Virus record (IMG/VR): IMGVR_UViG_3300031758_000533
Location: 1 to 25,191 of that record
Source: a virus
Reading direction: 5' to 3' (one strand)
Length of the DNA: 25,191 nt
Shown here piece after piece: positions 1 through 21,967 of this stretch (its first letter is position 1; each line of letters begins with the position of its first letter). Made by a program: the position numbers and the translations under genes. The notes below the pieces were generated by a model. The model was not told where the DNA came from and did not search any database. It saw only the letters and a program-made list of their open reading frames with translations.

Positions 1-1232
1 ACGGCAGGCTGAATGATTGCGTTGGATTGGCGTACTGCCCAATCTGCTGCTTTTGCGCGGCCTTTGCCGCCCATTGATTCTGGGCTAAATAATTTCTTTG
101 TTAAATCTCCAGCAGTCGCGGCCCGTCCTGCTCGCTCAAACATTCCACGCCTACCCGGTCCTGCTTGTCCAGCAACATCTGCAATTGTTGTTGCGATGCC
201 TCTAGTCATCTTTGCTGGCAGTTTTGCTGGCAAAGCAATAAATGTATTAGCGGCAGACCTAACAAAAGTATCAGGATCACCAACTGTGTACTCGCCGATT
301 TTGCGAGATGCGGTTTGAATTGCCTCAATGCCAGTTTCAACGCCACCAGCAGTTTTAGCCACTCCTTTTGCAAGCGGAGCAACAACACCTTTCAAGGCTA
401 ATTCGCCTGCTTTTTGAGTAACCTTGCCAGTAGCTTTCCCGAATGCTTTTGTGACTGTATTTGTACCCGGCAATGAAAGCGGATTAGCTACATCAAAAAG
501 CAAAGCAACATTTTCATTAATTTCTTCCTTCTTTAAACCAGATTCTTTTACTAGGTCTTCGTATGCCTTTTTAGCAAGTTCAGCTTCTTCTGGAGTCGCG
601 CCTTGAGCTAATGCGGCAGCAGAAGCAAGTTTTTGTAATAATGGATTTTCTGCCAATAAACGAGCGGCATGATCGGGATTGTCTTCGTATACTTTTTGAG
701 AGAACTGACGCATTCCCTCACGAAGCATATATTTTTCAAATCTTTCGTCTTTAGACCTGCCTAATAGTTTGTCAGTAATATCACTACCAAACATTGCAAA
801 CCTTACAGCAGCATCTGCTGCTTCTTGTGATCCCTCGGCAACTCCAACTGCTCCCGATCTCCAAGTATTGCCTGCTACCTTTAATGTTTTCTCCGCTTCT
901 TCGGGAGATTGCGACATTGCATCAATCGGCTTTAAGATACCATTGTAAATAAATTCACCAGCACCAGTTCCAAGTTGTTTTGCAATATTTATTCCAGTAG
1001 GAATAAAAGTAGAGATTGCTTCAGATGCTTTTTGCGTAAATGGCTTTTCTTCTTCAGCATCAAATAAAATGCGTTCTTGATCACGGGACAGTTCTTGACC
1101 CGATTGCTTCATTTGTTGAAGCGTTCCTACATCTTTAATTTTTGCAGGACTATTATCTAACTCATCTTCAGGAGGTCGCCATTGTTGATTTAGATTTTTA
1201 TCTAACTCATCTTCAGGAGGTTGCCAAGCCAT
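1..1232 (-). CDS. Large probable internal virion/DNA-ejection protein, partial
   Basis: The frame is open from an ATG at 1232 to the left edge of the window (410 complete codons), so the C-terminus is missing. It begins MAWQPPEDELD and repeats that motif 15 residues later. The rest is Ala/Gly/Lys-rich and largely helical in character, with segments such as GINIAKQLGTGAGEF and TKAFGKATGKVTQKAGELALKG that could form amphipathic helices. No catalytic motif is visible in the part present. The start lies one base after the stop of the preceding gene (TAA-T-ATG), which indicates coupled translation. Being the last gene of a tail/internal-protein operon in a podovirus-like layout fits a T7 gp16-type or P22 gp16/gp20-type ejection protein. 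That role is inferred from position and composition only; I do not recognise a named family. Confidence 0.7.
   Translation of the reverse strand, partial: MAWQPPEDELDKNLNQQWRPPEDELDNSPAKIKDVGTLQQMKQSGQELSRDQERILFDAEEEKPFTQKASEAISTFIPTGINIAKQLGTGAGEFIYNGILKPIDAMSQSPEEAEKTLKVAGNTWRSGAVGVAEGSQEAADAAVRFAMFGSDITDKLLGRSKDERFEKYMLREGMRQFSQKVYEDNPDHAARLLAENPLLQKLASAAALAQGATPEEAELAKKAYEDLVKESGLKKEEINENVALLFDVANPLSLPGTNTVTKAFGKATGKVTQKAGELALKGVVAPLAKGVAKTAGGVETGIEAIQTASRKIGEYTVGDPDTFVRSAANTFIALPAKLPAKMTRGIATTIADVAGQAGPGRRGMFERAGRAATAGDLTKKLFSPESMGGKGRAKAADWAVRQSNAIIQPA
1153..1226 (-). repeat. 45-bp tandem repeat encoding W-[QR]-PPEDELD
   Basis: Two 29-bp blocks (1153-1181 and 1198-1226) differ at one base and are offset by 45 bp, an exact multiple of three. 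They encode two copies of W-[QR]-P-P-E-D-E-L-D at the extreme N-terminus of the large partial protein. This could be a short binding motif or a recent slippage duplication. Confidence 0.85.
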
Positions 1233-1233
1233 A

Positions 1234-3165
1234 TTATTTTTTAGTCCCAAAATCTCCGTTAAAATTATATCTTTGTCCAGATTTTAATTTTGACCACTCT
1301 TCTTGTGATTTAATTAAAATCGGTGCATTTTCTTGAATTGGTTGAAAATTAGTTTGTTTTTCAGTTTTTAACAAATTTTTTTCATGTGCTTCTAATTTAC
1401 TTTGCACATCTGTTGCCCTTTTTTCTATATCTTCAAGAACTTTTAAATATTTTTCTTTGTGTAAATTCTTAACATCAAGACTGCCTTGAAGCGAAGTTAA
1501 CATTTTAAGTTCAGCATCTGATAATGCACCAAGACTTCCTCCTGCCGCTTTTAAATCTACCAATTCTTGAAAACCAATAATTCCTTTTATAGTTTCGTTA
1601 AGTGATTCAACTGTACTAGCGTCAGTTGGAAATGGAAGTTTTGACAATAAATTTGCCATGCCTCCAACGCCGGGACTTACACCTCCAATAATTCCACGAA
1701 TTTCAGAAATTGCTTTCTTTAATGTTTTTGCTCTATCAATTCCAACTTCAACTGTTTTAACTTGCTGCTCAACAGGCACAGCAGGAACATATGTATTAGT
1801 AAGAGTACCATCTTTATCAGTCACTTGTTTCATTACCATTCCTTTAGGAACTTGTTCCATTGGAGATGGTTCATCTTCTGTAATTCTTACATAATGCAAG
1901 CGTGTTCCCTTTTCGCCTTTTTCAATATCAATTGTAGCCTTAACGCCTAGTTGTTGCTCTAAAATCTTCTTTGCCATTCGCGCATCGGCAGCACTTTTAA
2001 ATGGTCTTCCAGTTAATGAACTTTCAGCCCGATATCTATATTCTTCTTCAGTTTCCTGAATTGGTTCAGCAATCAATGTTTCTGAAGGCACGGCTTCAGG
2101 CAATGGTACTTCAACAGGTATTGCCTTTCTGATTGGTATTCCTTCCGCTCCAGATACAGGTACTGTTTCTAAAGTTTCTCCACCTACTACTGCTTTCCCA
2201 AGGCTTTCTGGATATGCATACTGTTCTTGTTCTGGAACTTTTACTGGAGCCAAGGAATATCCTTCTTCTTGTGTAGGAATAGGAGTAATGGCACTTATAT
2301 TAGAAAAAATTCCTTGTTCTGAATCGGGTTTAGGAGCAATTACAGGTGGATTGCTTAACCCAGCTAAAGCACCTTCAATTCTTTTAACAGAACCTGAAAG
2401 CCTCTTGTAATTCATTAAAGCCTCTTCAGGAATCGCGCCAAGACTTGCAAGTCGCTCAAGTTCTTGAATATTGTTTTCCTTTAAGGCTTTTTCTGCTTCC
2501 CATTTTACTGATGTCGGGAATGAACTAACAAGTTTTTGTTTTGCTTCATCAAGAGATTTTTGCCTGTCTTGTAAAGCAACTTCAACTTTTTGTTCTTTTG
2601 ATTGAGTAGCAGAAGATACATCGGTAGATGGAGTGATTTGTTCAGAAACAGATGTATTTTCAGAAGGAATTTCTTCTGGTTTTTTATTAAGATTTGGCCT
2701 ATAATAATCACCCCAGTTTATTTCACCAGACTCAACAGCATCGGTATCTTCTTTATCTTTTATATCTTCATTTTTTGCTGTTGCTGCTTGGACTTGTTGA
2801 CCAAGCAAATTTAACCTTGCTTGCTTTATAAGTTTTTCTTCTTCTGTTGGAGTGGCTTTAATTTGAGCAAGATGAACATCTCGTAAATATTTAAGTGCTT
2901 CATCATCTTTTTTCTCTTCGCGTTCACGCTTACTTACATAAGCAGTAGTAATCCCTTGAAGTGCAGCACCTACACCCTTATTTACTCCTTCAATCGCGCC
3001 AAGACCTACCAATTCTTCTCCTGATGAACGAATCTGAAATGGCTTATCTTCTTTGAACGATAGTGCCGTGTGCTGAATGCTCGCAACGGGACGCATCCCA
3101 GCAAGCGGAGATTCGCTGCGGATTGTCGCAAATTGCGGTGAAAAAGAGTAGGATTCTGATGCCAT
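1234..3165 (-). CDS. 643-aa probable internal virion protein
   Basis: I do not recognise the family. The N-terminus (about residues 1-75) is compact and contains PFQIRSSGE at 42-50, a motif shared with the 136-aa MGG protein of this operon. Residues 85-240 are charged and probably coiled-coil. About 280-440 is a Pro/Glu-rich linker containing a more structured stretch (TGRPFKSAADARMAKKILEQ). About 470-610 is again helical. The C-terminus (SQEEWSKLKSGQRY...GDFGTKK) resembles the short S/E-E-x-x-x-L-x-x-G-x-x-Y tail often seen at the ends of phage internal or DNA-transfer proteins. The ATG is preceded by GGAGGA at good spacing, and that site lies inside the last codons of the upstream gene. Position suggests a virion-internal or ejection protein. 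Confidence 0.75.
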   Translation of the reverse strand: MASESYSFSPQFATIRSESPLAGMRPVASIQHTALSFKEDKPFQIRSSGEELVGLGAIEGVNKGVGAALQGITTAYVSKREREEKKDDEALKYLRDVHLAQIKATPTEEEKLIKQARLNLLGQQVQAATAKNEDIKDKEDTDAVESGEINWGDYYRPNLNKKPEEIPSENTSVSEQITPSTDVSSATQSKEQKVEVALQDRQKSLDEAKQKLVSSFPTSVKWEAEKALKENNIQELERLASLGAIPEEALMNYKRLSGSVKRIEGALAGLSNPPVIAPKPDSEQGIFSNISAITPIPTQEEGYSLAPVKVPEQEQYAYPESLGKAVVGGETLETVPVSGAEGIPIRKAIPVEVPLPEAVPSETLIAEPIQETEEEYRYRAESSLTGRPFKSAADARMAKKILEQQLGVKATIDIEKGEKGTRLHYVRITEDEPSPMEQVPKGMVMKQVTDKDGTLTNTYVPAVPVEQQVKTVEVGIDRAKTLKKAISEIRGIIGGVSPGVGGMANLLSKLPFPTDASTVESLNETIKGIIGFQELVDLKAAGGSLGALSDAELKMLTSLQGSLDVKNLHKEKYLKVLEDIEKRATDVQSKLEAHEKNLLKTEKQTNFQPIQENAPILIKSQEEWSKLKSGQRYNFNGDFGTKK

Positions 3166-3166
3166 A

Positions 3167-3712
3167 TTACATTCCTCCGAATTGTAGCCCGGATGCGGTT
3201 GGTAAAGCGAAACGATTAGTTGATTGTTGAGTGCCTCCGGTTCCTACATTGGATGCCATTGCTTGAGGAATACCCATCTGTCCTGCGGCGGGTGCATTCG
3301 TCGCAGCGGGACCAGCAACGCCAGCAGTACCTCCTGCTGCGGCGATCTTTTGTTGTTGTGCGGTTTCCATGCTGTAACCAGAACCACCGACAGAAGTCTG
3401 TCTAGAATTTTGTGCAGCTTGCTGATCAAGTCGTTGTTGATTCTCTGCCATAGATTGAAAGTTCTTTTGAAGGTTGCTTTCTGAAGAGCGACGAAAATCT
3501 GCGGCTTTTTGGTTTTCAGATTGAATAGCTTGCTGACGCTCACGCTCGGCTTTCTCTGCGGCAAGACGCTTCTGCTCTGACTCTGCGGATTTTCGAGCGG
3601 CATCCATTTGCGCTTGCATTTTTGCTTGTTGTTTGGCTTGAAAATCATTTTTAGATGAGCTTGCTCCGCTATCATAACTAGATTTTCTTTCTCCCCCACC
3701 TCGTCCACCCAT
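3167..3712 (-). CDS. MGG...FGGM protein, third of three related Q-rich proteins
   Basis: This 181-aa protein begins MGGRGGGER, has a highly charged coiled-coil core (about 24-105, rich in Q, A, K, E, R), a Gly/Ala-rich linker, and ends NRFALPTASGLQFGGM. The 166-aa neighbour has the same plan: MGG start, KRLxxE-type coiled coil, GGxGYxM followed by a lysine, then N-x-FALP...GLQFGG. The two are clearly paralogous. There is no signal peptide, membrane helix or catalytic motif. The ATG is preceded by GGAGGT 8 bases upstream, which is itself the Gly-Gly codon pair of the upstream gene. Its place just before the large internal proteins suggests a small virion component, scaffold or ejected protein. 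The function is unknown. Confidence 0.75.
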   Translation of the reverse strand: MGGRGGGERKSSYDSGASSSKNDFQAKQQAKMQAQMDAARKSAESEQKRLAAEKAERERQQAIQSENQKAADFRRSSESNLQKNFQSMAENQQRLDQQAAQNSRQTSVGGSGYSMETAQQQKIAAAGGTAGVAGPAATNAPAAGQMGIPQAMASNVGTGGTQQSTNRFALPTASGLQFGGM

Positions 3713-3714
3713 AA

Positions 3715-4215
3715 TTATGTACCTCCAAATTGAAGTCCAGTTGTTTTAGGTAACGCAAACGCATTGCTTGCTGTTGGTTTATTAGCTTCCGTAGTTGGAA
3801 TGTTTGGAGCAGCACCAAGATCAACAAGTGCTTTTTTTCGTGCAGATGCCATATCGTAACCCCCTCCAGTTGCAGCAGTACCTGCCGCCATTTGAGCTTG
3901 CCGCTCTTGCTCTAATTTGTTCTGATCAGAAATTTGTTGAATATTAGAAAGAGCAGATAATTCTTGTTGAGCCTTTGATTCTTGCTCGCGACGAAGTTGC
4001 TGTGCGGCAGCATTTTGAGATTCAATCGCTGCGCTCCTCTGTTGTTCCTCTAATCGCTTTTGCTCGGCGGCATATGCAGCTTGTTGCTCTTGATACATTT
4101 GCATTTGTTGCGCCATCTGCTGATTAAACATGGCTTGTTGCATTTTCATTTCTTGCTCTCGCAATGCTTGATCTGCTTTTATTTGACTTTTACTGGGTCC
4201 GCCTGATCCTCCCAT
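3715..4215 (-). CDS. MGG...FGGT protein, second of three related Q-rich proteins
   Basis: This 166-aa protein starts MGGSGGPSK and continues with an extremely Gln/Met/Glu/Ala-rich coiled coil (about 10-105). GGGYDMASARKK follows at about 117-128, then a Pro/Thr linker, and the protein ends NAFALPKTTGLQFGGT. It is a paralogue of the 181-aa gene that follows. The final codons TTT GGA GGT ACA TAA place a strong Shine-Dalgarno sequence in front of that next gene. Its own ribosome-binding site, AAAGGAAT, lies in the 26-base gap upstream. No known domain is recognised. A structural or ejected internal role is inferred from the operon position and low-complexity helical make-up. Confidence 0.75.
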   Translation of the reverse strand: MGGSGGPSKSQIKADQALREQEMKMQQAMFNQQMAQQMQMYQEQQAAYAAEQKRLEEQQRSAAIESQNAAAQQLRREQESKAQQELSALSNIQQISDQNKLEQERQAQMAAGTAATGGGYDMASARKKALVDLGAAPNIPTTEANKPTASNAFALPKTTGLQFGGT

Positions 4216-4241
4216 ATGATTATTCCTTTCGTTTTGTTATT
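4216..4241 (-). promoter_or_regulatory. Ribosome-binding site cassette before the 166-aa gene
   Basis: The minus strand reads AAACGAAAGGAATAAT, then CATATGGGAGG. The same 16-base stretch sits before the 290-aa gene at 7221, where it also encodes the upstream C-terminus KRKE. AAAGGAAT is the Shine-Dalgarno core. Confidence 0.6.
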
Positions 4242-4802
4242 TTATACCCCGCCAAATTTAATGCTTGACATATCGGGCATTTGAAAAGTATTTGCCGCAA
4301 CATTTTTTGCTGTTGTAGTTGCTGGTTTATAAATATATTCAGTTGGCATATCAGAAGGTGCAGTTGTATCATCAACTGGTTTTTGTGCAAGTGCAGTTGT
4401 TGCTGGTGATACTGCTGTAGATTGAGTAACTTGAGCGGGAGCAGAAGTCGCAGTCGAATAAATATCTTTTTGAGTACGCAAGTTTGCCAATTTAGCTTGT
4501 TGTTGCTGACGCATATTTGCCAACATTTGTTGTTGTTGTGCAAAATATTGAGGATCACGGCTCAACCCTTTTGTCATTGGAGTATATGAACTTTGTTTTG
4601 GATTCAACCAATTCATTAATGGACCACCAAAGTTTTTATCCCATGTCCCAACTGGTTTTCCGCTCCCCGGCAAAACATTTAATGGGTCCATTATATTTAA
4701 TGGATCAATTACTTTTCTTGCACTTTTAACAAATTTAGAATTCCCAAGGTTAAAGGGATCAACAACTTTAGTTACAACTTTTCCAAATGATGAGCCACCC
4801 AT
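4242..4802 (-). CDS. MGG...FGGV protein, first and most divergent of the trio
   Basis: This 186-aa protein begins MGGSSFGKVV. Its N-terminal 65 residues contain a repeated VxDPxN pattern (VVDPFNLGN, VIDPLNIMD, DPLNVLP). A Gln-rich helical stretch follows at about 89-110 (QQQQMLANMRQQQQAKLANL), then a Thr/Ala/Pro linker, and it ends NTFQMPDMSSIKFGGV. The ending matches the 166- and 181-aa genes: N-x-F-x-[LM]-P, then [LI]-[QK]-F-G-G-x. Here the Gly-Gly pair is GGC GGG and is not the ribosome-binding site of the next gene, so the protein motif itself seems to be kept. Its ATG follows TAGGAT 7 bases upstream, inside the end of the cysteine-cluster gene. The function is unknown; a small virion protein is plausible. 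Confidence 0.7.
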   Translation of the reverse strand: MGGSSFGKVVTKVVDPFNLGNSKFVKSARKVIDPLNIMDPLNVLPGSGKPVGTWDKNFGGPLMNWLNPKQSSYTPMTKGLSRDPQYFAQQQQMLANMRQQQQAKLANLRTQKDIYSTATSAPAQVTQSTAVSPATTALAQKPVDDTTAPSDMPTEYIYKPATTTAKNVAANTFQMPDMSSIKFGGV

Positions 4803-4804
4803 AA

Positions 4805-5086
4805 TTATAATCCTATATTTGATCTAGCCTCCAAGCAAAGCTCCGATCCGGGTTCAAACAATCTACACGCCTGTGGACGGCAATTATAAACAGAACACTT
4901 AACATTAGTGCCTACTTCTCCTTCCAAAGCAACGCATCTGTTATTTTCTGTCTTCATTAGCGGGTAATCAGTTCGTTGCATTTCAATAGGAATGCCAGTT
5001 GCGTCTGATCGATCTTTTTTGAAGATCGGCCATGACCACTTGAAACTGCAACACGCTCCACATTTTTCGCAATCATAGTTTGTCAC
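4805..5086 (-). CDS. YkgJ-type CxxCxxCC cysteine-cluster protein
   Basis: This 93-aa protein has C6-x2-C9-x2-C12-C13 (CEKCGACC), C51 in RCVAL, C64, C69, and C74 and C84 in RPQACRLFEPGSELC. That is the pattern of the YkgJ/UPF0153 zinc- or iron-chelating family, at near-minimal length. Family members are thought to bind a metal ion or Fe-S cluster, and their biochemical role is mostly unknown. The start is GTG at 5086, overlapping the upstream stop as ATGTGA, which is the only in-frame start that retains CxxCGACC. It sits two genes after a PP-loop PAPS-reductase-like enzyme, so a joint redox or sulfur role is possible but unproven. Confidence 0.85.
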   Translation of the reverse strand: MTNYDCEKCGACCSFKWSWPIFKKDRSDATGIPIEMQRTDYPLMKTENNRCVALEGEVGTNVKCSVYNCRPQACRLFEPGSELCLEARSNIGL

Positions 5087-5493
5087 ATTCCGTACATTTT
5101 ACCAACGCCACCAATTGCGCTACTAGCTAAAGTTTTTCCAGCATTTGCCCAAGCATCGTAGACTGCATTCTCTCCAGAACTGCGAAGCTGAAATGGCATA
5201 TTCGGCATGAAATTCAATCCTTCTTTTTGATTTTTCTGAAGCATTTCAAGCATCTTCAAATATTTTTCTGCCTGATCCTGACTTTGCATTGCATTCGACT
5301 CGGAAGTATTTAAATTAATGCCTTTAATTCCCTCCGCAAATGCTCCAAGACCTTGCGCTATCCTTTGGTTTTGCGCTTGAGTGCGATCAAATGCCTGCAA
5401 GTCTGCGGCGGTTGCTTGCGTTGCTTTAGGGACTGTCCCTGCGGCAAATTGCGATTCGCCAATTTTATTTGTGGCTGGTGCTGATCCTCCCAT
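5083..5493 (-). CDS. 136-aa MGG protein with PFQLRSSGE motif
   Basis: I do not recognise the family. The protein starts MGGSAPATNK, is Ala/Gln-rich with a helical segment at about 65-92 (QDQAEKYLKMLEMLQKNQKE), carries PFQLRSSGE at 100-108, and ends in an Ala/Gly-rich tail (SSAIGGVGKMYGM). PFQ-[IL]-RSSGE recurs near the N-terminus of the 643-aa protein and in both cases is followed by a small-residue-rich helix. The two may therefore share a binding or membrane-interacting element. The Shine-Dalgarno AAGGAG lies within the last codons of the upstream PP-loop gene. Its stop overlaps the GTG of the cysteine-cluster gene. It is probably a minor internal virion protein, by context. Confidence 0.65.
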   Translation of the reverse strand: MGGSAPATNKIGESQFAAGTVPKATQATAADLQAFDRTQAQNQRIAQGLGAFAEGIKGINLNTSESNAMQSQDQAEKYLKMLEMLQKNQKEGLNFMPNMPFQLRSSGENAVYDAWANAGKTLASSAIGGVGKMYGM

Positions 5494-5494
5494 A

Positions 5495-6352
5495 TTATTT
5501 GTTCTCCTTCCATTCTACTGGTCGAAATCCCAAGTCTGGGATTACGATGTCCTCGTAGGGTGCTAAATGTGAAATGTTGCTAATCGTAGCTTTTAACTTC
5601 GGGCAATGCACATGACTTCCTTGATGCCGATCTACGCAATTCAAGCAGGTCGGATAGAAGTCGGCATTCTGTGATTTATCTGGGTTGTTTCCCCAATGCT
5701 TTGCGATTGTGTGGATGTTGATCCGTTCCACATATCGTGTTGGATCAGGCTCGACATTGTTATCGATCAAATACTGAAAGATGTCGCGATCAGTCCATCC
5801 ATGCATGGGGTATAATGACACAGGACTGCCCTCTGCGTAGCGAATTTCTTGCGACAATGGTACATGACCCTTGATCAAATCTGTGTCGCTATTTTTGGTT
5901 CCAATCCACACCGATTCCCAAGGCCAATTGAAAGTTCCAGTCGGGCGTTTCAAGAAATCATCCACGCCACACATGAACTTCTCTCCTTCTCTCGGACGCT
6001 CGGTTCCTAACGAAAGCACAACTGCTTTGGTTCCCCATTGAAAGTAGTGAAGGAGATCAAATCGAACCTCGCCAGTCTCGGTGTCAGGCCCGTCTGCAAG
6101 TGCATATCGACTAGCCGGGTACTCGTAAACAGTCAAATCCCACTCCTTAATCAATCGATCAGAATAAGCATATCGTTCACGAAATTTCGGTTGGCGGAAC
6201 TGGATGACAGGAATGTCAATTCCAGCTTTAAAACGAAGCAAATGAAGCATTGCGGTTGAGTCTTTGCCGCCACTCCACAAAACAACAGAATTGGGCCAAT
6301 TTTTAGCCCACAATTTTGCTTTCTCAATCGTGTTTTCGACAAGTTTCGTCAT
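5495..6352 (-). CDS. PP-loop PAPS-reductase-like enzyme
   Basis: This 285-aa protein belongs to the adenine-nucleotide alpha-hydrolase fold of PAPS reductases, ATP sulfurylases and DndC-like proteins. The PP-loop SGGKDST is at 27-33, after a hydrophobic beta-strand. Further family features are SLGTERPREGEKFMCG (about 114-129) and YPMHGWTDRDIFQYL (181-195), equivalent to the Y-P-[IL]-x-D/G-W-T-D-x-D-V motif. A cysteine set C236-x2-C239-x10-C250 plus C128 could bind metal or Fe-S; the ECGLH ending of true PAPS reductases is absent. A classic assimilatory sulfate-reducing role is therefore doubtful, while sulfur insertion or nucleotidyl transfer onto another substrate is possible. The gene overlaps its upstream neighbour by ATGA and lies among virion genes. 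Related genes are frequent in phage genomes, but their substrates are largely unknown. Confidence 0.88.
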   Translation of the reverse strand: MTKLVENTIEKAKLWAKNWPNSVVLWSGGKDSTAMLHLLRFKAGIDIPVIQFRQPKFRERYAYSDRLIKEWDLTVYEYPASRYALADGPDTETGEVRFDLLHYFQWGTKAVVLSLGTERPREGEKFMCGVDDFLKRPTGTFNWPWESVWIGTKNSDTDLIKGHVPLSQEIRYAEGSPVSLYPMHGWTDRDIFQYLIDNNVEPDPTRYVERINIHTIAKHWGNNPDKSQNADFYPTCLNCVDRHQGSHVHCPKLKATISNISHLAPYEDIVIPDLGFRPVEWKENK

Positions 6353-7221
6353 ATGATAATTGCCGCCGCACCAATCGCCGCGCCACCAATTCCTGCGCCT
6401 GCGCCTATTAATGCGCCTGTCCTTTGGTTTTGACCTTGCGCTTTCTGCGATGCGGCATCGTAAAGAGATTGTTCGTATGCCTGACGATTAGCCCTAGAGG
6501 TCTGTTGCAGGTTTAAAATCTCACCCATGTTTTTCGAGAGGTAGTCAAAAGCATTCTGTTTGGCTTGACCAAGACCTTCGCCCATTGATTGCGCCCCAGC
6601 AAAAATGTTTTTTTGCCAGTCTTGCATTGCGCCAAGGTTTGCTGCTTCTGATGCCATCCTGCCACCGATCAATGCGCCGGGGTCTAAACCTCCAGATGGT
6701 GCTTGTTGTGAATTTACAAATCCTTGACGAAGCGAAATATTTTCGAGCAAGCGTTTTCTTCCTTCTTCGGTAGAAATATCTGCAAGAGCAGAACGACCAA
6801 AAGTGCTGGATGGATCGACGCCTGTGGCGTAAGATGCAGCAATGCCCTTGCTTTGCAACCATTCATCCATTAAATTTTTAAAAGCAGGAGCAGAGGTCGC
6901 TTGCTCAATCTGCTCTGGCAACTGGTAACGCATACGAGCAGTAGCTGGGGATGTAATTTGCTCATATTGACGAGAACGAGCAAGGTTAGACATTCCAAGT
7001 TCTCCTGCTTGCCGAGATGTCTGCTCGGCATCAAAAGACTGCATTAAAGGCTGGGTCTTTGAATAAAGGTCAAATAGTTGTCCACGGGTCTGGATATCAG
7101 CAATTTGACCTTCTAAAGCACCACGCCCCATTTCTTGTTTTTGAGATAATAAAGCACCTTCCTGACTCATGTCAGGTCTGCTCATATATCTTCCTGCGTC
7201 AACTGATGCTACACCTCCCAT
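6349..7221 (-). CDS. 290-aa MGG protein with C-terminal glycine zipper
   Basis: The family is not recognised. The protein begins MGGVASVDAG, is mainly helical and rich in Gln/Ala/Ser, and ends in a hydrophobic glycine-zipper stretch at about 268-290 (GALIGAGAGIGGAAIGAAAI). Such G-x3-G segments often insert into membranes or oligomerise. With the gene next to internal-protein genes, an ejected, pore- or channel-forming protein comparable in role to P22 gp7 is a reasonable inference. The start follows AAAGGAAT at good spacing, and that site also encodes the last residues of the upstream gene. The stop overlaps the PP-loop gene start (ATGA), so the two are translationally coupled. Another possible reading is a tail-associated chaperone or minor head protein. 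Confidence 0.7.
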   Translation of the reverse strand: MGGVASVDAGRYMSRPDMSQEGALLSQKQEMGRGALEGQIADIQTRGQLFDLYSKTQPLMQSFDAEQTSRQAGELGMSNLARSRQYEQITSPATARMRYQLPEQIEQATSAPAFKNLMDEWLQSKGIAASYATGVDPSSTFGRSALADISTEEGRKRLLENISLRQGFVNSQQAPSGGLDPGALIGGRMASEAANLGAMQDWQKNIFAGAQSMGEGLGQAKQNAFDYLSKNMGEILNLQQTSRANRQAYEQSLYDAASQKAQGQNQRTGALIGAGAGIGGAAIGAAAIII

Positions 7222-7224
7222 AAA

Positions 7225-7614
7225 TTATTCCTTTCGTTTGATGTAATAAACTTCTCTATGCAATCTTTCCATTCCAAGTTTTTCCATAATTTCATTAGTA
7301 AATGTTATTCTTTTATCTTGCAATGGCACTCCGACATAGCCCGGACCACCAGTTAATTGATTGTAAACTCTCCAGTCGTGCATCACTTGTACTACATCTC
7401 TTGGAGATGTAAAGTCAGGATGGAAAGCTGGATAGATTGTCGGAATAAACACATGGTCACTATATCCAACCAGTTTATTTTCTTTATAATGACCATAAAC
7501 ATTAATCTGTGGATGATCTACGACTTTATGATCAAATGTTTCTGCAAAATCAACTAGTTCAAGAAACTCTCCTGAATCTTTTGGAATTAATTTATATTCG
7601 ATTGGTGATCTCAT
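7225..7614 (-). CDS. Small GNAT-like protein
   Basis: This 129-aa protein resembles the second half of a GNAT acetyltransferase. INVYGHYKENKLVGYSDHV looks like the beta2-beta3 hairpin, and EIMEKLGMERLHREVYYI looks like the final alpha4-beta5 'LGF' segment. The canonical acetyl-CoA loop [RQ]-x-x-G-x-[GA] is not evident; GGPGYVGVPLQDKR occupies that region. It may therefore be a degenerate or divergent acetyltransferase, or a different alpha/beta protein. Its ATG directly abuts the protease stop (TAA-ATG) with no clear Shine-Dalgarno, so re-initiation is expected. GNAT-like genes are occasionally found in phage structural operons. The assignment is from pattern recognition only. Confidence 0.5.
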   Translation of the reverse strand: MRSPIEYKLIPKDSGEFLELVDFAETFDHKVVDHPQINVYGHYKENKLVGYSDHVFIPTIYPAFHPDFTSPRDVVQVMHDWRVYNQLTGGPGYVGVPLQDKRITFTNEIMEKLGMERLHREVYYIKRKE

Positions 7615-8886
7615 TTAATAGATATTTTTAGTCAAGCCTGCTTGATAATACAATTTACCATTTATCACAATAGATTTTGAAATTCCATAATCTTCAAGAG
7701 ATGCAGAAAATAATTTTGGAGTTGGGATGAAAGTATTTATTGGCAATGTGAACGGAGATATATTTACCTCTGATGCTACCCGATCAATACGATTAAATAC
7801 ACTAATACTTCCAGCACCAGTATTCCCGGCAAACATCAATCCAATAATTTTTCTTACCCCACCAATATCTGCCATAACGCACGATCCAGAGTCTCCTCCC
7901 GCCATTGGTGATGTATTTAAAGGAGTTTGCATTATGATTTGATCTGAAAATGAAAATACTCCTTCAGAGTATGAAACATTAACAGTAGCACCAATGCCAG
8001 TTATATTTATTTTACATTCACCAGTTCCCCAACCAATTGGTCCAGATGTTCTGCCCGTGCAATATACAGTTGGATTAGTTGAAAGCAAATTATTCAATTC
8101 TGCTGTTGTCGCAAAAGGCATTGATGATGGATATGTTGTTTGGTTTATTGGTTGCCAAACCTGATATGAGTTATCATCAATATATTCTGGTCTTGGAATA
8201 ATTAATGAACAATCAACATAATTTGTTCCATTTTTGTACAAAGGAATATATTTTTTAATTTTATCAAACGGCAAAGCAATATTAAACATCATTCCAGTAT
8301 TACTAGAATTAATAGATGCAGATGGGAAATAAGAGTTATTATCAACCCATGTTCGTTTTTCTGAAATATTGTATGGGTCATTTATTTCAGACTCAATATT
8401 ACGCTCACTAGCTATTGTTAATTTATTTATAATAACATGGGCATTTGTAACACCAACAACCCTATCATCTGTATTATCTTTAGCAAAAAATCCAAGAGTT
8501 CCAACAGTATAGCCAGATAGAGTCCACGCAGTAGGGAATTCAGATATTTGCATTCCTCCTTTAAATGCAACAGGAAGACTTGGAAACAATCTTAATCTTT
8601 CTACATTTTGATCTCCTGCTGGATAACAACTTAATGCTTTTAAATCAAAAATTTTAATAACATCAGTTGCAATTGTTGCTCCATCAATTTCTATGTTTTT
8701 TGGCAAGATTTTGTCTTTTGGTATATCAGATTCTGATTTTTTTTCATCAACACCAAAAACAAGCGATATTTCATCAGTTCTAATTCCATTGCGTGTTTTA
8801 TATCCAATAAAAACACTATTAACACCAGATTCAATATTGGATTTGTAAATCTCCTGAATTTGTTCTTTTATTGATTGATTCAGCAT
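7615..8886 (-). CDS. Trypsin-like (chymotrypsin-fold) serine protease
   Basis: This 423-aa protein (from ATG 8886) has the full chymotrypsin-type triad in order: His in VTNAHVI, Asp in NYVDCSLI, and Ser in AGGDSGSCV. The N-terminal region (IGYK..NG..TDEISLVFGVDEKK..SDIPKDKILPKNIE) matches the leader domain of a group of bacterial trypsin-like proteases that lack a classical secretion signal. No signal peptide or membrane helix is present. ATG 8886 is preferred over the in-frame TTG at 8901 because GGGAG lies 8 bases before it and the upstream gene stops inside that spacer. The gene sits between the nozzle gene and probable internal-protein genes. It may be a virion-borne protease, a maturation enzyme for neighbouring structural proteins, or an anti-host factor. 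The fold is secure; the role is inference. Confidence 0.9.
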   Translation of the reverse strand: MLNQSIKEQIQEIYKSNIESGVNSVFIGYKTRNGIRTDEISLVFGVDEKKSESDIPKDKILPKNIEIDGATIATDVIKIFDLKALSCYPAGDQNVERLRLFPSLPVAFKGGMQISEFPTAWTLSGYTVGTLGFFAKDNTDDRVVGVTNAHVIINKLTIASERNIESEINDPYNISEKRTWVDNNSYFPSASINSSNTGMMFNIALPFDKIKKYIPLYKNGTNYVDCSLIIPRPEYIDDNSYQVWQPINQTTYPSSMPFATTAELNNLLSTNPTVYCTGRTSGPIGWGTGECKINITGIGATVNVSYSEGVFSFSDQIIMQTPLNTSPMAGGDSGSCVMADIGGVRKIIGLMFAGNTGAGSISVFNRIDRVASEVNISPFTLPINTFIPTPKLFSASLEDYGISKSIVINGKLYYQAGLTKNIY

Positions 8887-8891
8887 AATAA

Positions 8892-9221
8892 TTACTCCCA
8901 ATTTACAAACAAAACATAAATACTTGCTGGAGGAGGAGGAGGAGGAGGAGGAGGAGGAGGAGGAATGTTTTCTGGCGCAAACCCAACTTCAATTTCAAAA
9001 TCGCTATATGAAGTAATATTTTTGAACTGTGACGCAACTTGATCCAAAACATCTTGACGATCATTGTATGTTCCACATAACGCACACGGCAAGCAATTAT
9101 TTTGATTTTTCTCAAAAGGAATTGACGAATATACAGGAACCAAAAATTCATCCGCAAACGGAGAAATAAACTTGTTCGGAAAATTCGTCAATTTAATTTT
9201 TGCTTTATCGATACTTGGCAT
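8892..9221 (-). CDS. 109-aa protein with a 12-proline run near its C-terminus
   Basis: No family is recognised. Starting at ATG 9221, one base after the nozzle stop (TAA-T-ATG), it begins MPSIDKAKIKLTNFP. It contains a cysteine pair region CLPCALC and ends with twelve consecutive prolines followed by ASIYVLFVNWE. An earlier in-frame ATG at 9260 overlaps the nozzle gene by 38 bases and has no ribosome-binding site. Eleven of the prolines are CCT, from a pure GGA/TCC microsatellite. Such a run should stall ribosomes without EF-P, and its length may vary between genomes. The stop falls inside the Shine-Dalgarno spacer of the protease gene, so stalling or termination here could affect protease expression. 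Confidence 0.7.
   Translation of the reverse strand: MPSIDKAKIKLTNFPNKFISPFADEFLVPVYSSIPFEKNQNNCLPCALCGTYNDRQDVLDQVASQFKNITSYSDFEIEVGFAPENIPPPPPPPPPPPPASIYVLFVNWE
8929..8964 (-). repeat. (GGA)12 trinucleotide microsatellite
   Basis: Twelve uninterrupted GGA units are present on the plus strand (TCC on the coding strand). They encode a polyproline stretch, so unit gain or loss would be in frame. Confidence 0.95.
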
Positions 9222-9222
9222 A

Positions 9223-11352
9223 TTAACAAGGATTGTTTGCCTTGAATTCTTGAGCGGCATTTGTTGCGGCTTGCTCGGCTAATTTGCCAGCTTCTTCTTT
9301 GGCGTGAGAATATGAAATAGTAGATATAAACGATGCGCCTGCTGTCGCAGAGACTGAATTTGTACTATTATTGCATTGAAGTGACACAGTTTTGTAAACT
9401 TTTGCACTCCATGTTTGTGGATTATACAAAACATTTTCATATGGACTAGGATCAAGATCGACAGTAAAATTCTGTCCATTTTGACCAACTACACATGATT
9501 TTGTTTCGCTTACTTGAGGTATTCCTGTTGCTTTCTCGCTCCAAGGATCAATAAATAAACGCACAATTTCAATGCCCATTTCCCCACACCATTCAATTAA
9601 AATTGAAAATGCTTTATCTACATCGTTTGTAAGAGAACTTTCGCAAGTTTCATAAGTTGAACTTCTATTTGCTGATTCAGTAATTAATCTCCGATATTGT
9701 GTATTTAAAAGAGAAACATTGTTAATTTGTTCCTCAAATGAAGTTCCTTTATATTGCCACTCATTCGTAACCGCTAAAATTCTTTGATTTAAAATTTGCA
9801 AATACCTTCCCTTGCTTCCTTTATAACTTACTTTTAAATCAACTGTCCCTCCGATTTCGCAAGCATCAATTTCTGAATAAATAAACTGCTTTAAATCCAT
9901 AGAATCACCAAGCAATGGAGTTTCTAATTGGCAGTAAATCCTATTATACAAATTAGTTGTTGATCCATCAGGATTGATTTTTAAATAAGTGTCGTATCGT
10001 TCAGGTTGGAATGATTCCCAAAGATGGTTATAAGAACCATCAGCAGTCGGAGCATAATCAATTGAAAATTGAAAACATCGATTTTGATTGTCAATTTTTC
10101 CAGTTGCCCATTGTACTGGACGAGTTCCTGTCCAGACTCCTGCCCATGCTGGTTGCCGTCCTCCACCCCATTCTGCCGCAGGAGCGTAGTCCATAACCAT
10201 TGTATCAGTATTTAACTTTGACAGGTATGGAACGGAATACATTAAATAGTTTTCAAAAGAAACAGCACAAATATTAGATGGATCGCCATCCATGAGTTGC
10301 TTGGTTCTTGCCATTTCAATGTCTTTAAAAAGAACTTGAGAAGACAAATAACTTGCGGAAGCAATATCTGCTGCAACTAAACCACCATCAGAATACCACC
10401 ATAATTGTCCAGCTTGAAATGCTATTGACCTACTTGAAACACACCCAATTGTTGGGTAAAGAGTGTTTTGGAAATTAGCAGTTGTAGCCCATTGTGTTCG
10501 ATCTAAAATGCCACTTGCAAGCGAGTATGTAGACCTATCTGTAAATATGATAAGCCTAGTTGAAGTATCTTGCCCAACATAAGAAACAAGACCTGTTATA
10601 GGTCGAATAAATGTAAAATCTCCTCGTCCAGTCCCTGTTTTTCTTTCGTCCCAAGATGTCGGATCGCCAAGGTCTGAAGCTAAAATAATATTTTTGCTTG
10701 CAATCCACATTCTGTTTCCAGAATATGACATATGTGTTCCGATAGGAATGATTGAATCTTGGGTTCCAGTTTTATTACTGCCATCCCACCAACTAGCAGA
10801 AGATAAACCATCTTGCATCATTACAATTGTATGAGCAGGAGTAACCAATTCATTTTCTGAAGTTGTTAAATTTGCTGTTTTTGTAGCTAAAGCAAAAGTG
10901 ATGTTTTCAACATCCTTGTCAAACTTGATACTTGTTAGCTTGAAATCATTCCAGTTTTTAGGTTGAACCAATGGGAATGGAGAATAATAAACAGAACCAT
11001 TGACCGCAAAAACAATGTAGCTTAATTCTTGAGCAATTACTCCTTCTCCATTCACATCAAAAATTTTAGCAGGAACTACAGTCGTGACTCCATTTTCTTC
11101 TCGGCTAAATGATGCTTCTTTTTGTTTGTTTGCCTGAAATATAATTCCTCCTTGAAGGTTTCCGGGCGGAAGGCTTAACTGCATTTTGTGTCCGGGTCTA
11201 GTCTGTGCAATGCCACCACGAATAGACAAATTAACACCCCATTTAAATTGATTCTCTGGCAAAGCCCAAGGATTCCGTACCGAATTGACTCCTTGCGTCC
11301 ACCCAGTAGAAACTTTTTGCAGTCTACCTGTTGTGATGTTATCGCTTTTCAT
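9223..11352 (-). CDS. Tail nozzle-like protein (T7 gp12 / tail tubular B-type)
   Basis: This 709-aa protein has the typical opening of podoviral nozzle or tail tubular B-like proteins: GVNSVRNPWALPENQFKWGVNLSIRGGIAQTRPGHK at about 21-56 (shown in parts: PWALPENQF, RGGIAQTRPGHK). A series of beta-rich, Trp/Tyr/Gly-containing blades consistent with a propeller follows to about residue 480. The last 200 residues or so (several Cys, QCNNSTNSV, and a helical tail KEEAGKLAEQAATNAAQEF) look like an added domain. Its ATG overlaps the stop of the adaptor-like gene (TAATG), and no Shine-Dalgarno is visible, so coupled translation is likely. Adaptor followed by nozzle is the conserved order in T7-like and related podoviruses. 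Confidence 0.68.
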   Translation of the reverse strand: MKSDNITTGRLQKVSTGWTQGVNSVRNPWALPENQFKWGVNLSIRGGIAQTRPGHKMQLSLPPGNLQGGIIFQANKQKEASFSREENGVTTVVPAKIFDVNGEGVIAQELSYIVFAVNGSVYYSPFPLVQPKNWNDFKLTSIKFDKDVENITFALATKTANLTTSENELVTPAHTIVMMQDGLSSASWWDGSNKTGTQDSIIPIGTHMSYSGNRMWIASKNIILASDLGDPTSWDERKTGTGRGDFTFIRPITGLVSYVGQDTSTRLIIFTDRSTYSLASGILDRTQWATTANFQNTLYPTIGCVSSRSIAFQAGQLWWYSDGGLVAADIASASYLSSQVLFKDIEMARTKQLMDGDPSNICAVSFENYLMYSVPYLSKLNTDTMVMDYAPAAEWGGGRQPAWAGVWTGTRPVQWATGKIDNQNRCFQFSIDYAPTADGSYNHLWESFQPERYDTYLKINPDGSTTNLYNRIYCQLETPLLGDSMDLKQFIYSEIDACEIGGTVDLKVSYKGSKGRYLQILNQRILAVTNEWQYKGTSFEEQINNVSLLNTQYRRLITESANRSSTYETCESSLTNDVDKAFSILIEWCGEMGIEIVRLFIDPWSEKATGIPQVSETKSCVVGQNGQNFTVDLDPSPYENVLYNPQTWSAKVYKTVSLQCNNSTNSVSATAGASFISTISYSHAKEEAGKLAEQAATNAAQEFKANNPC

Positions 11353-20555: not shown

Positions 20556-20760
20556 ATTTTATTGAAAATCTATATTTAGATTTACTTCATTTGGATTTAC
20601 TGGCAGTTCTGAAAAATTAACTTCGTTAGCAGGAATAGCTATCGTTCCATCTGGAGGATTCCATTTGCTTGTGTCGCCATCCCAAACAACTGTATTAATC
20701 AACCATCCACCATCTTTGTCAAGTATTGCGTAATTATTCATTTTAGAAGTAGGTTGTAAT
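20503..20760 (-). repeat. 258-bp direct repeat, copy 2
   Basis: This matches 21710-21967 with about five differences by eye (offset 1207 bp). It spans the end of a polyglycine fibre gene, the entire 60-aa gene, and the start of the 339-aa gene or its stump. Confidence 0.9.
20559..20741 (-). CDS. 60-aa fibre-associated protein, copy 2
   Basis: This is nearly identical to the copy at 21766-21948 (differences: ELPV/ELPI and NLNIDF/NVNIDF). The opening NNYAILDKDGGWLINTVVWDGD, then WNPPDGTIAI (quoted in parts), resembles short phage proteins of the form 'YAI[IV]D..G.VxNxIVWDG...W.PPEG' that follow tail-fibre genes. These may be fibre-assembly helpers or tip modules. There is no signal peptide or membrane helix. 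It begins two bases after the 339-aa fibre stop (TAA-A-ATG) with no Shine-Dalgarno, so coupled translation is expected. Conservation of both copies without stops suggests either recent duplication or selection for both. Confidence 0.75.
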   Translation of the reverse strand: MNNYAILDKDGGWLINTVVWDGDTSKWNPPDGTIAIPANEVNFSELPVNPNEVNLNIDFQ

Positions 20761-21762: not shown

Positions 21763-21967
21763 ATTTTATTGAAAATCTATATTTACATTTACTTCATTTG
21801 GATTTATTGGTAGTTCTGAAAAATTAACTTCGTTAGCAGGAATAGCTATCGTTCCATCTGGAGGATTCCATTTGCTTGTGTCACCATCCCAAACAACTGT
21901 ATTAATCAACCATCCACCATCTTTGTCAAGTATTGCGTAATTATTCATATTAGAAGTAGGTTGTAAT
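21710..21967 (-). repeat. 258-bp direct repeat, copy 1
   Basis: This is the partner of 20503-20760. Together they flank the body of the 339-aa adhesin gene in direct orientation. Confidence 0.9.
21766..21948 (-). CDS. 60-aa fibre-associated protein, copy 1
   Basis: This is the copy that follows the 892-aa fibre (TAA-T-ATG, one base apart). The sequence pattern is the same as in copy 2: NNYAILDKDGGWLI, then VVWDGD and WNPPDGT, with a C-terminal NVNIDFQ. Its stop is followed after three bases by the start of the 339-aa fibre. The repeated order polyglycine adhesin, then 60-aa gene, suggests the small protein belongs functionally with the preceding adhesin, as assembly chaperones often do. That role is inferred from order and from the loose resemblance to short proteins downstream of other phage fibres. 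Confidence 0.75.
   Translation of the reverse strand: MNNYAILDKDGGWLINTVVWDGDTSKWNPPDGTIAIPANEVNFSELPINPNEVNVNIDFQ

Follow-up and report, generated by a model that had tools for sequence, protein, structure and literature searches.

The window, the whole 25,191-nucleotide stretch of viral DNA analyzed here, carries three tandem genes on its minus strand whose products start with Met-Gly-Gly (MGG) and end in a common C-terminal tail of 16 residues. We refer to these as tagged genes:

3167 to 3712, minus strand: 181-aa tagged protein with MGG start and tail NRFALPTASGLQFGGM, a paralogue of the 166-aa protein
3167 to 3214, minus strand: tail of the 181-aa protein plus stop codon (pattern match, 3167 to 3211)
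3715 to 4215, minus strand: 166-aa tagged protein with MGG start and tail NAFALPKTTGLQFGGT
3715 to 3762, minus strand: tail of the 166-aa protein plus stop codon (pattern match, 3715 to 3759)
4242 to 4802, minus strand: 186-aa tagged protein with MGG start and tail NTFQMPDMSSIKFGGV
4242 to 4289, minus strand: tail of the 186-aa protein, 16 codons with the stop included (pattern match, 4242 to 4286)

In all three window proteins, the tail has the consensus N-x-F-x-[LM]-P-x4-[LI]-[QK]-F-G-G-x-stop, always with four residues between P and [LI]. The back-translated pattern matched the window exactly three times and had no match in 100 dinucleotide shuffles. A tail HMM matched only the three tagged frames in the window and only three frames in each of the two near-complete relatives, which are metagenomic and ~60 kb each (E values over all three sequences, 1e-10 to 3e-6; next best, 0.23). 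We then used a leave-lineage-out profile, trained on 112 tails that all came from outside the window's lineage. It recovered all three tagged proteins of the window (E values, 3e-9 to 4e-6; next window frame, 0.19) and, over the window and the two relatives together, exactly three proteins in each (E values, 1e-9 to 3e-5; next frame, 0.16). Reading of the frames, the pattern, and the tail HMM thus agree with an earlier note on this DNA as to the MGG starts, tails, lengths, and coordinates of the three proteins.

That note had also described the middles of the three proteins as dissimilar. This held for the 186-aa protein, whose middle had no detectable similarity to the other two, but not for the 166- and 181-aa proteins; their middles are paralogous and aligned at 31 to 36% over 80 to 94 residues (E values, 1e-5 to 7e-8, to be read with the low complexity of the sequences in mind). 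In the predicted structure of the 166-aa protein, one helix (residues 9 to 115) and a short helix (residues 122 to 132) are followed by a low-confidence, unstructured end that bears the tail.

Distribution and conservation of the tail

Relatives of the window proteins found by homology searches, a selection independent of any tail pattern, retained both the gene order and the tail. IMG/VR, scanned twice by pattern, gave at least 217 sites; among those listed, 209 lay in closed reading frames, and 206 of these frames were of at least 100 codons. Distinguished by their last 60 residues, at least 164 different tail proteins are encoded on IMG/VR viral contigs. MGG was part of neither search pattern. 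Among the IMG/VR matches listed, 147 of 160 complete tail open reading frames (ORFs) had an MGG start, a count that may be inflated because, in choosing the start, preference was given to any MGG among the frame's first 70 residues.

As a control, 84,980 bacterial and archaeal genomes (257 Gb) were scanned with the broad pattern. There were 14 matches, 13 of which end frames of 11 to 49 codons and are chance matches. The fourteenth ends a 200-aa frame on a 4,333-base contig (L179) binned as Chitinophagaceae. This contig has a second tail-like frame, so that two tagged frames stand in tandem, and it is the only contig of the cellular collection with real ones; it is probably of viral origin and merely placed in a metagenome bin. 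The bin is a weak hint at the host. Chance and low complexity are ruled out as origins of the tail by the shuffles, by the scan of cellular genomes, and by the profile trained outside the lineage.

Since the search patterns themselves demanded F, P, and FGG, the constancy of these residues in the survey is a circular result. Sites not constrained by the broad pattern were nevertheless strongly biased, with G, N, or D four residues after P and a hydrophobic residue before P. Variant tails (GLTFGEGR, GIQLGG, and GLNF) adjoin standard ones in neighboring genes. Together with the relatives selected by homology, these variants show a genuine tail that is able to degenerate. Among close orthologues, the tail had a pN of 0.07 to 0.11 versus a pS of 0.39 to 0.53, and its pN/pS amounted to about half the body value in each of the three orthologue groups. 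Pooled over pairs and close to saturation, these counts serve only to compare one region with another. In the MGG starts, GGA, GGT, and GGC are all used as codon 2, and the third codon was GGA in 122 of 156 cases among the matches listed, with ATGGGAGGA common. The low pN/pS of the tail and the variation of the two glycine codons both indicate selection at the protein level.

Across the family, 39 members aligned end to end, through the MGG, a Q-rich helix, a G-[YF]-[DN] block, and the tail. With the ends removed, 143 of 176 tagged proteins fell in one cluster (among the matches listed). About twenty small groups or singletons stayed outside it, some with clearly different starts, so the tail is also found on some bodies that show no detectable similarity to the cluster. 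A 242-aa protein (L042, 7745 to 8473) joins a start of the 186-aa type to a body and tail of the 166-aa type, suggesting that members of the family have fused or split.

Searches beyond these metagenomic relatives gave little. Pfam and PHROG comparisons had best E values of 0.045 to 0.25 for the three window proteins and of 0.006 at best for the outlier tagged proteins; the absence of a convincing match agrees with the earlier note, by which no described family is known to have this pair of termini. Structure searches with four profiles returned nothing meaningful among solved structures. By tblastn against 50,697 cultured-phage records, the terminase, portal, tail protein, and 290-aa protein had no relative. 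A 25-aa tail peptide likewise found nothing in the cultured phages, a weak test with so short a query. Neither the tail nor a convincing MGG protein was seen in T7 (partial), P-SSP7, Syn5, or phiKMV.

Gene neighborhood and comparison with T7

The genes around the tagged set include the following:

3 to 1250, minus strand: N-terminal 416 aa of a giant protein that runs past the window edge; gp16 position by synteny
1234 to 3165, minus strand: 643-aa protein, its gene immediately following the tagged set; gp15 position by synteny
5083 to 5493, minus strand: 136-aa protein with MGG start and without tail
6349 to 7221, minus strand: 290-aa MGG protein with a hydrophobic Gly/Ala-rich end; gp14 position by synteny
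7225 to 7614, minus strand: 129-aa protein; gp13 position by synteny
9223 to 11352, minus strand: 709-aa conserved tail protein; gp12 (nozzle) position by synteny

The 290- and 136-aa genes had been singled out earlier for their MGG starts; these are indeed present, and both proteins lack the tail. In the direction of transcription, the window reads as a 1168-aa protein, the 709-aa tail protein, a small protein, a protease-like gene, the 129-aa protein, the 290-aa MGG protein, a PAPS-reductase-like protein, the 136-aa MGG protein, a CxxCxxCC protein, the three tagged proteins, the 643-aa protein, and the giant protein. The general order in the lineage is a tail protein, small proteins, a hydrophobic-ended MGG protein, the tagged proteins, a protein of 500 to 740 aa, and the giant protein, which has 2835 aa in the relative G001 and up to ~3,470 aa in the lineage. 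Each of 26 nonredundant modules has one to three tagged genes, all at the same place; the partial contig L047 has four successive small proteins with tails or degenerate tails. In most loci the tagged set is followed by the gene for the 500- to 740-aa protein, commonly at a spacing of -1 to +6 bases.

Other features of the module vary or recur. The protease-like gene (7615 to 8901) encodes 428 aa, has a PHROG match to a protease, and is absent from this place in most relatives. The PAPS-reductase-like gene (5495 to 6352) and that of the CxxCxxCC metal-binding protein (4805 to 5086) recur inside the structural module in most relatives. A few lineages, among them one sub-lineage (L111, L147, L161, and L162; M..D..I.TVCLA.SP.RPEW...), have a gene for 228 to 243 aa that separates the tagged set from the long gene after it. 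PFQ[IL]RSSGE followed by a small-residue, helix-like stretch is seen, on reading, both at the end of the 136-aa protein and near the start of the 643-aa protein, and makes a second shared segment in the module. By eye, the 500- to 740-aa protein of several lineages has [LI]-x-P-[LI]-x-F-G-[GS] at its start, which might hint at a common binding site. Elsewhere in the window, two nearly identical 60-aa ORFs (MNNYAILDKDGGWLINTVVWDGDTSKWNPPDG...; 20559 to 20741 and 21766 to 21948) each lie just downstream of a collagen-like tail-fiber gene; by their sequences they would be a recent duplication or a recombination site.

The module matches in order and sizes the gene order gp11 to gp14 observed in T7, where gp15 and gp16 come after gp14 (PMC8954989). 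Placed on the T7 order from gp11 to gp16, the tagged genes would fall between the positions of gp14 and gp15. Profile comparisons of T7 gp12 and gp13 with module proteins (for gp13, the 129-aa protein) gave no similarity. The 709-aa protein has a weak PHROG match annotated as internal virion protein, and its predicted model was unusable for a fold search (mean pLDDT, 50). We concluded that the module resembles the T7 ejection module by synteny and size only, and that the lineage is, on the same grounds, probably podovirus-like.

Possible roles of the tail

We favor, with about even confidence, a reading by analogy in which the 16-residue tail would be a docking peptide on small, mostly helical proteins of the ejection apparatus. 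The body would be a variable helical rod, and the tail a flexible segment in which two short hydrophobic elements, FxLP and LxF, flank a turn and are followed by the Gly-Gly-x end. All copies in a genome would bind one repeated site near the portal, adaptor, or nozzle axis; different bodies would be held in the core or tail channel via this common site, and the tagged proteins would probably exit with the ejection proteins. We infer that the tagged proteins belong to the virion, that the tail binds, and that it does so at this location. The lower pN/pS of the tail relative to the body counts in favor of docking, as do the recovery of the tail by the leave-lineage-out profile, the many viral tail ORFs with MGG starts as opposed to the chance matches in cellular genomes, the predicted unstructured end, the fixed gene position, and the tails on bodies outside the main cluster. 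The lack of profile similarity of the tail to T7 gp7.3 and of module proteins to T7 gp12 and gp13 counts against it.

T7 gp7.3 is, by analogy, a mechanistic precedent. Only the C-terminal loop of this 99-residue protein is ordered and modelled, and six copies lie in the tail channel, each anchored to two adjacent nozzle subunits (PMC11784390). The tagged proteins, putative virion components, are like gp7.3 small and of low complexity, and it is the C-terminal loop of gp7.3 that docks to the nozzle. Distant relatives of gp7.3 found by tblastn match it only in the C-terminal part. Its end, by eye, has a hydrophobic-x-hydrophobic element, a glycine turn, and [LI]-N-[IY], and the endings of Syn5 gp36 and phiKMV ORF29 are similar. 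Homology of the tail to gp7.3 is not supported by profile comparison (hhalign probability, 0.06%, with no profile similarity). The two systems also differ in tail sequence, in gene number (a tandem set here, a single gene in T7), and in position, since the gp7.3 gene precedes the portal gene whereas the tagged genes sit between the gp14 and gp15 positions. A second small T7 protein, gp6.7, is an ejected core protein bridging the portal, gp14, and gp15 (PMC11784390); unlike what we propose for the tagged proteins, its contacts map to residues 2 to 15 and 34 to 50 and not to a C-terminal tail. Ejection or cargo proteins of crAss001 (PMC10172136) and phage DEV (PMC10925440) reside at the portal and tail, and their genes accompany those of giant proteins, according to the available portions of the two reports, which describe no shared terminal tag.

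Plain paralogy is the strongest competitor, possible though less probable than docking. One gene would have been duplicated repeatedly, its low-complexity body diverging fast and the tail being the slowest-changing part, for example as a contact between copies. The homology of the 166- and 181-aa middles and the single cluster of 143 middles explain much of the tail sharing in this way; since most middles form one family, a docking tag is perhaps unneeded to account for the shared end. The additional conserved blocks of the end-to-end alignment and the composite 242-aa protein also fit duplication. Paralogy accounts less well for the groups outside the cluster, some with quite different starts, although low complexity could mask their kinship, and for a tail whose length and distance to the stop codon are constant despite changing body lengths.

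A stronger form of docking is a transferable tag, by which one receptor site would recruit an open-ended set of unrelated small proteins. We regard this as doubtful. Such a tag is needed for the outlier bodies only, unless low complexity masks their kinship.

The earlier note had proposed a packing, docking, or processing signal for a family of small internal proteins beside ejection-type genes. The conserved termini and the ejection-like module bear this out in part; processing is the least likely of the three. For packing, the tail would bind scaffold or capsid during prohead assembly and so load the proteins into the head. T4 internal proteins bear short, shared N-terminal capsid targeting peptides, removed by a protease, on diverged bodies (PMC9026906), and the tagged proteins are like them in having a short terminal peptide common to several small proteins with diverged mature parts. 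In T4, however, head targeting was shown by experiment and the peptide is N-terminal, whereas the tag here is C-terminal and no protease was recognized in the scan of a near-complete relative described below; the tagged proteins also share their MGG start, but this is just three residues. The tagged genes adjoin that of the giant protein, which in G001 has a subthreshold match to ART-PolyVal (25.3 bits versus a cutoff of 31.2), a class of polyvalent proteins thought, in the available portion of the source, to be packaged and delivered (PMC5512222). They are nonetheless grouped with tail and ejection genes, away from the capsid and scaffold genes, and we consider head packing unlikely.

Cleavage by a phage protease in or beside the tail at maturation is very improbable. 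The conserved end is of regular length, and Gly-Gly-x resembles sites cut by some proteases, but a single residue follows the glycines. No maturation or prohead protease was recognized among 46 proteins encoded outside the tail genes of a near-complete relative, in the first 25 of 35 PHROG families. It is on this partial scan and on the proteins ending one residue past the glycines that processing ranks lowest of the three signals. Finally, a translation or packaging signal in the DNA or RNA, for which the mostly GGA third codon might speak, is disfavored by codon use to the point of being negligible, given the varied codons used at codon 2 and the synonymous change in the tail while its amino acids are held.

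If the docking reading is correct, the tail would be a sequence signature for particle-associated proteins in a large phage group that has no relative in the cultured collection searched. It would also help to locate the binding site of these proteins and might represent a C-terminal equivalent of the T4 targeting peptide. Were the tag transferable as well, a protein that gained these 16 residues would become a packaged, and possibly ejected, passenger.
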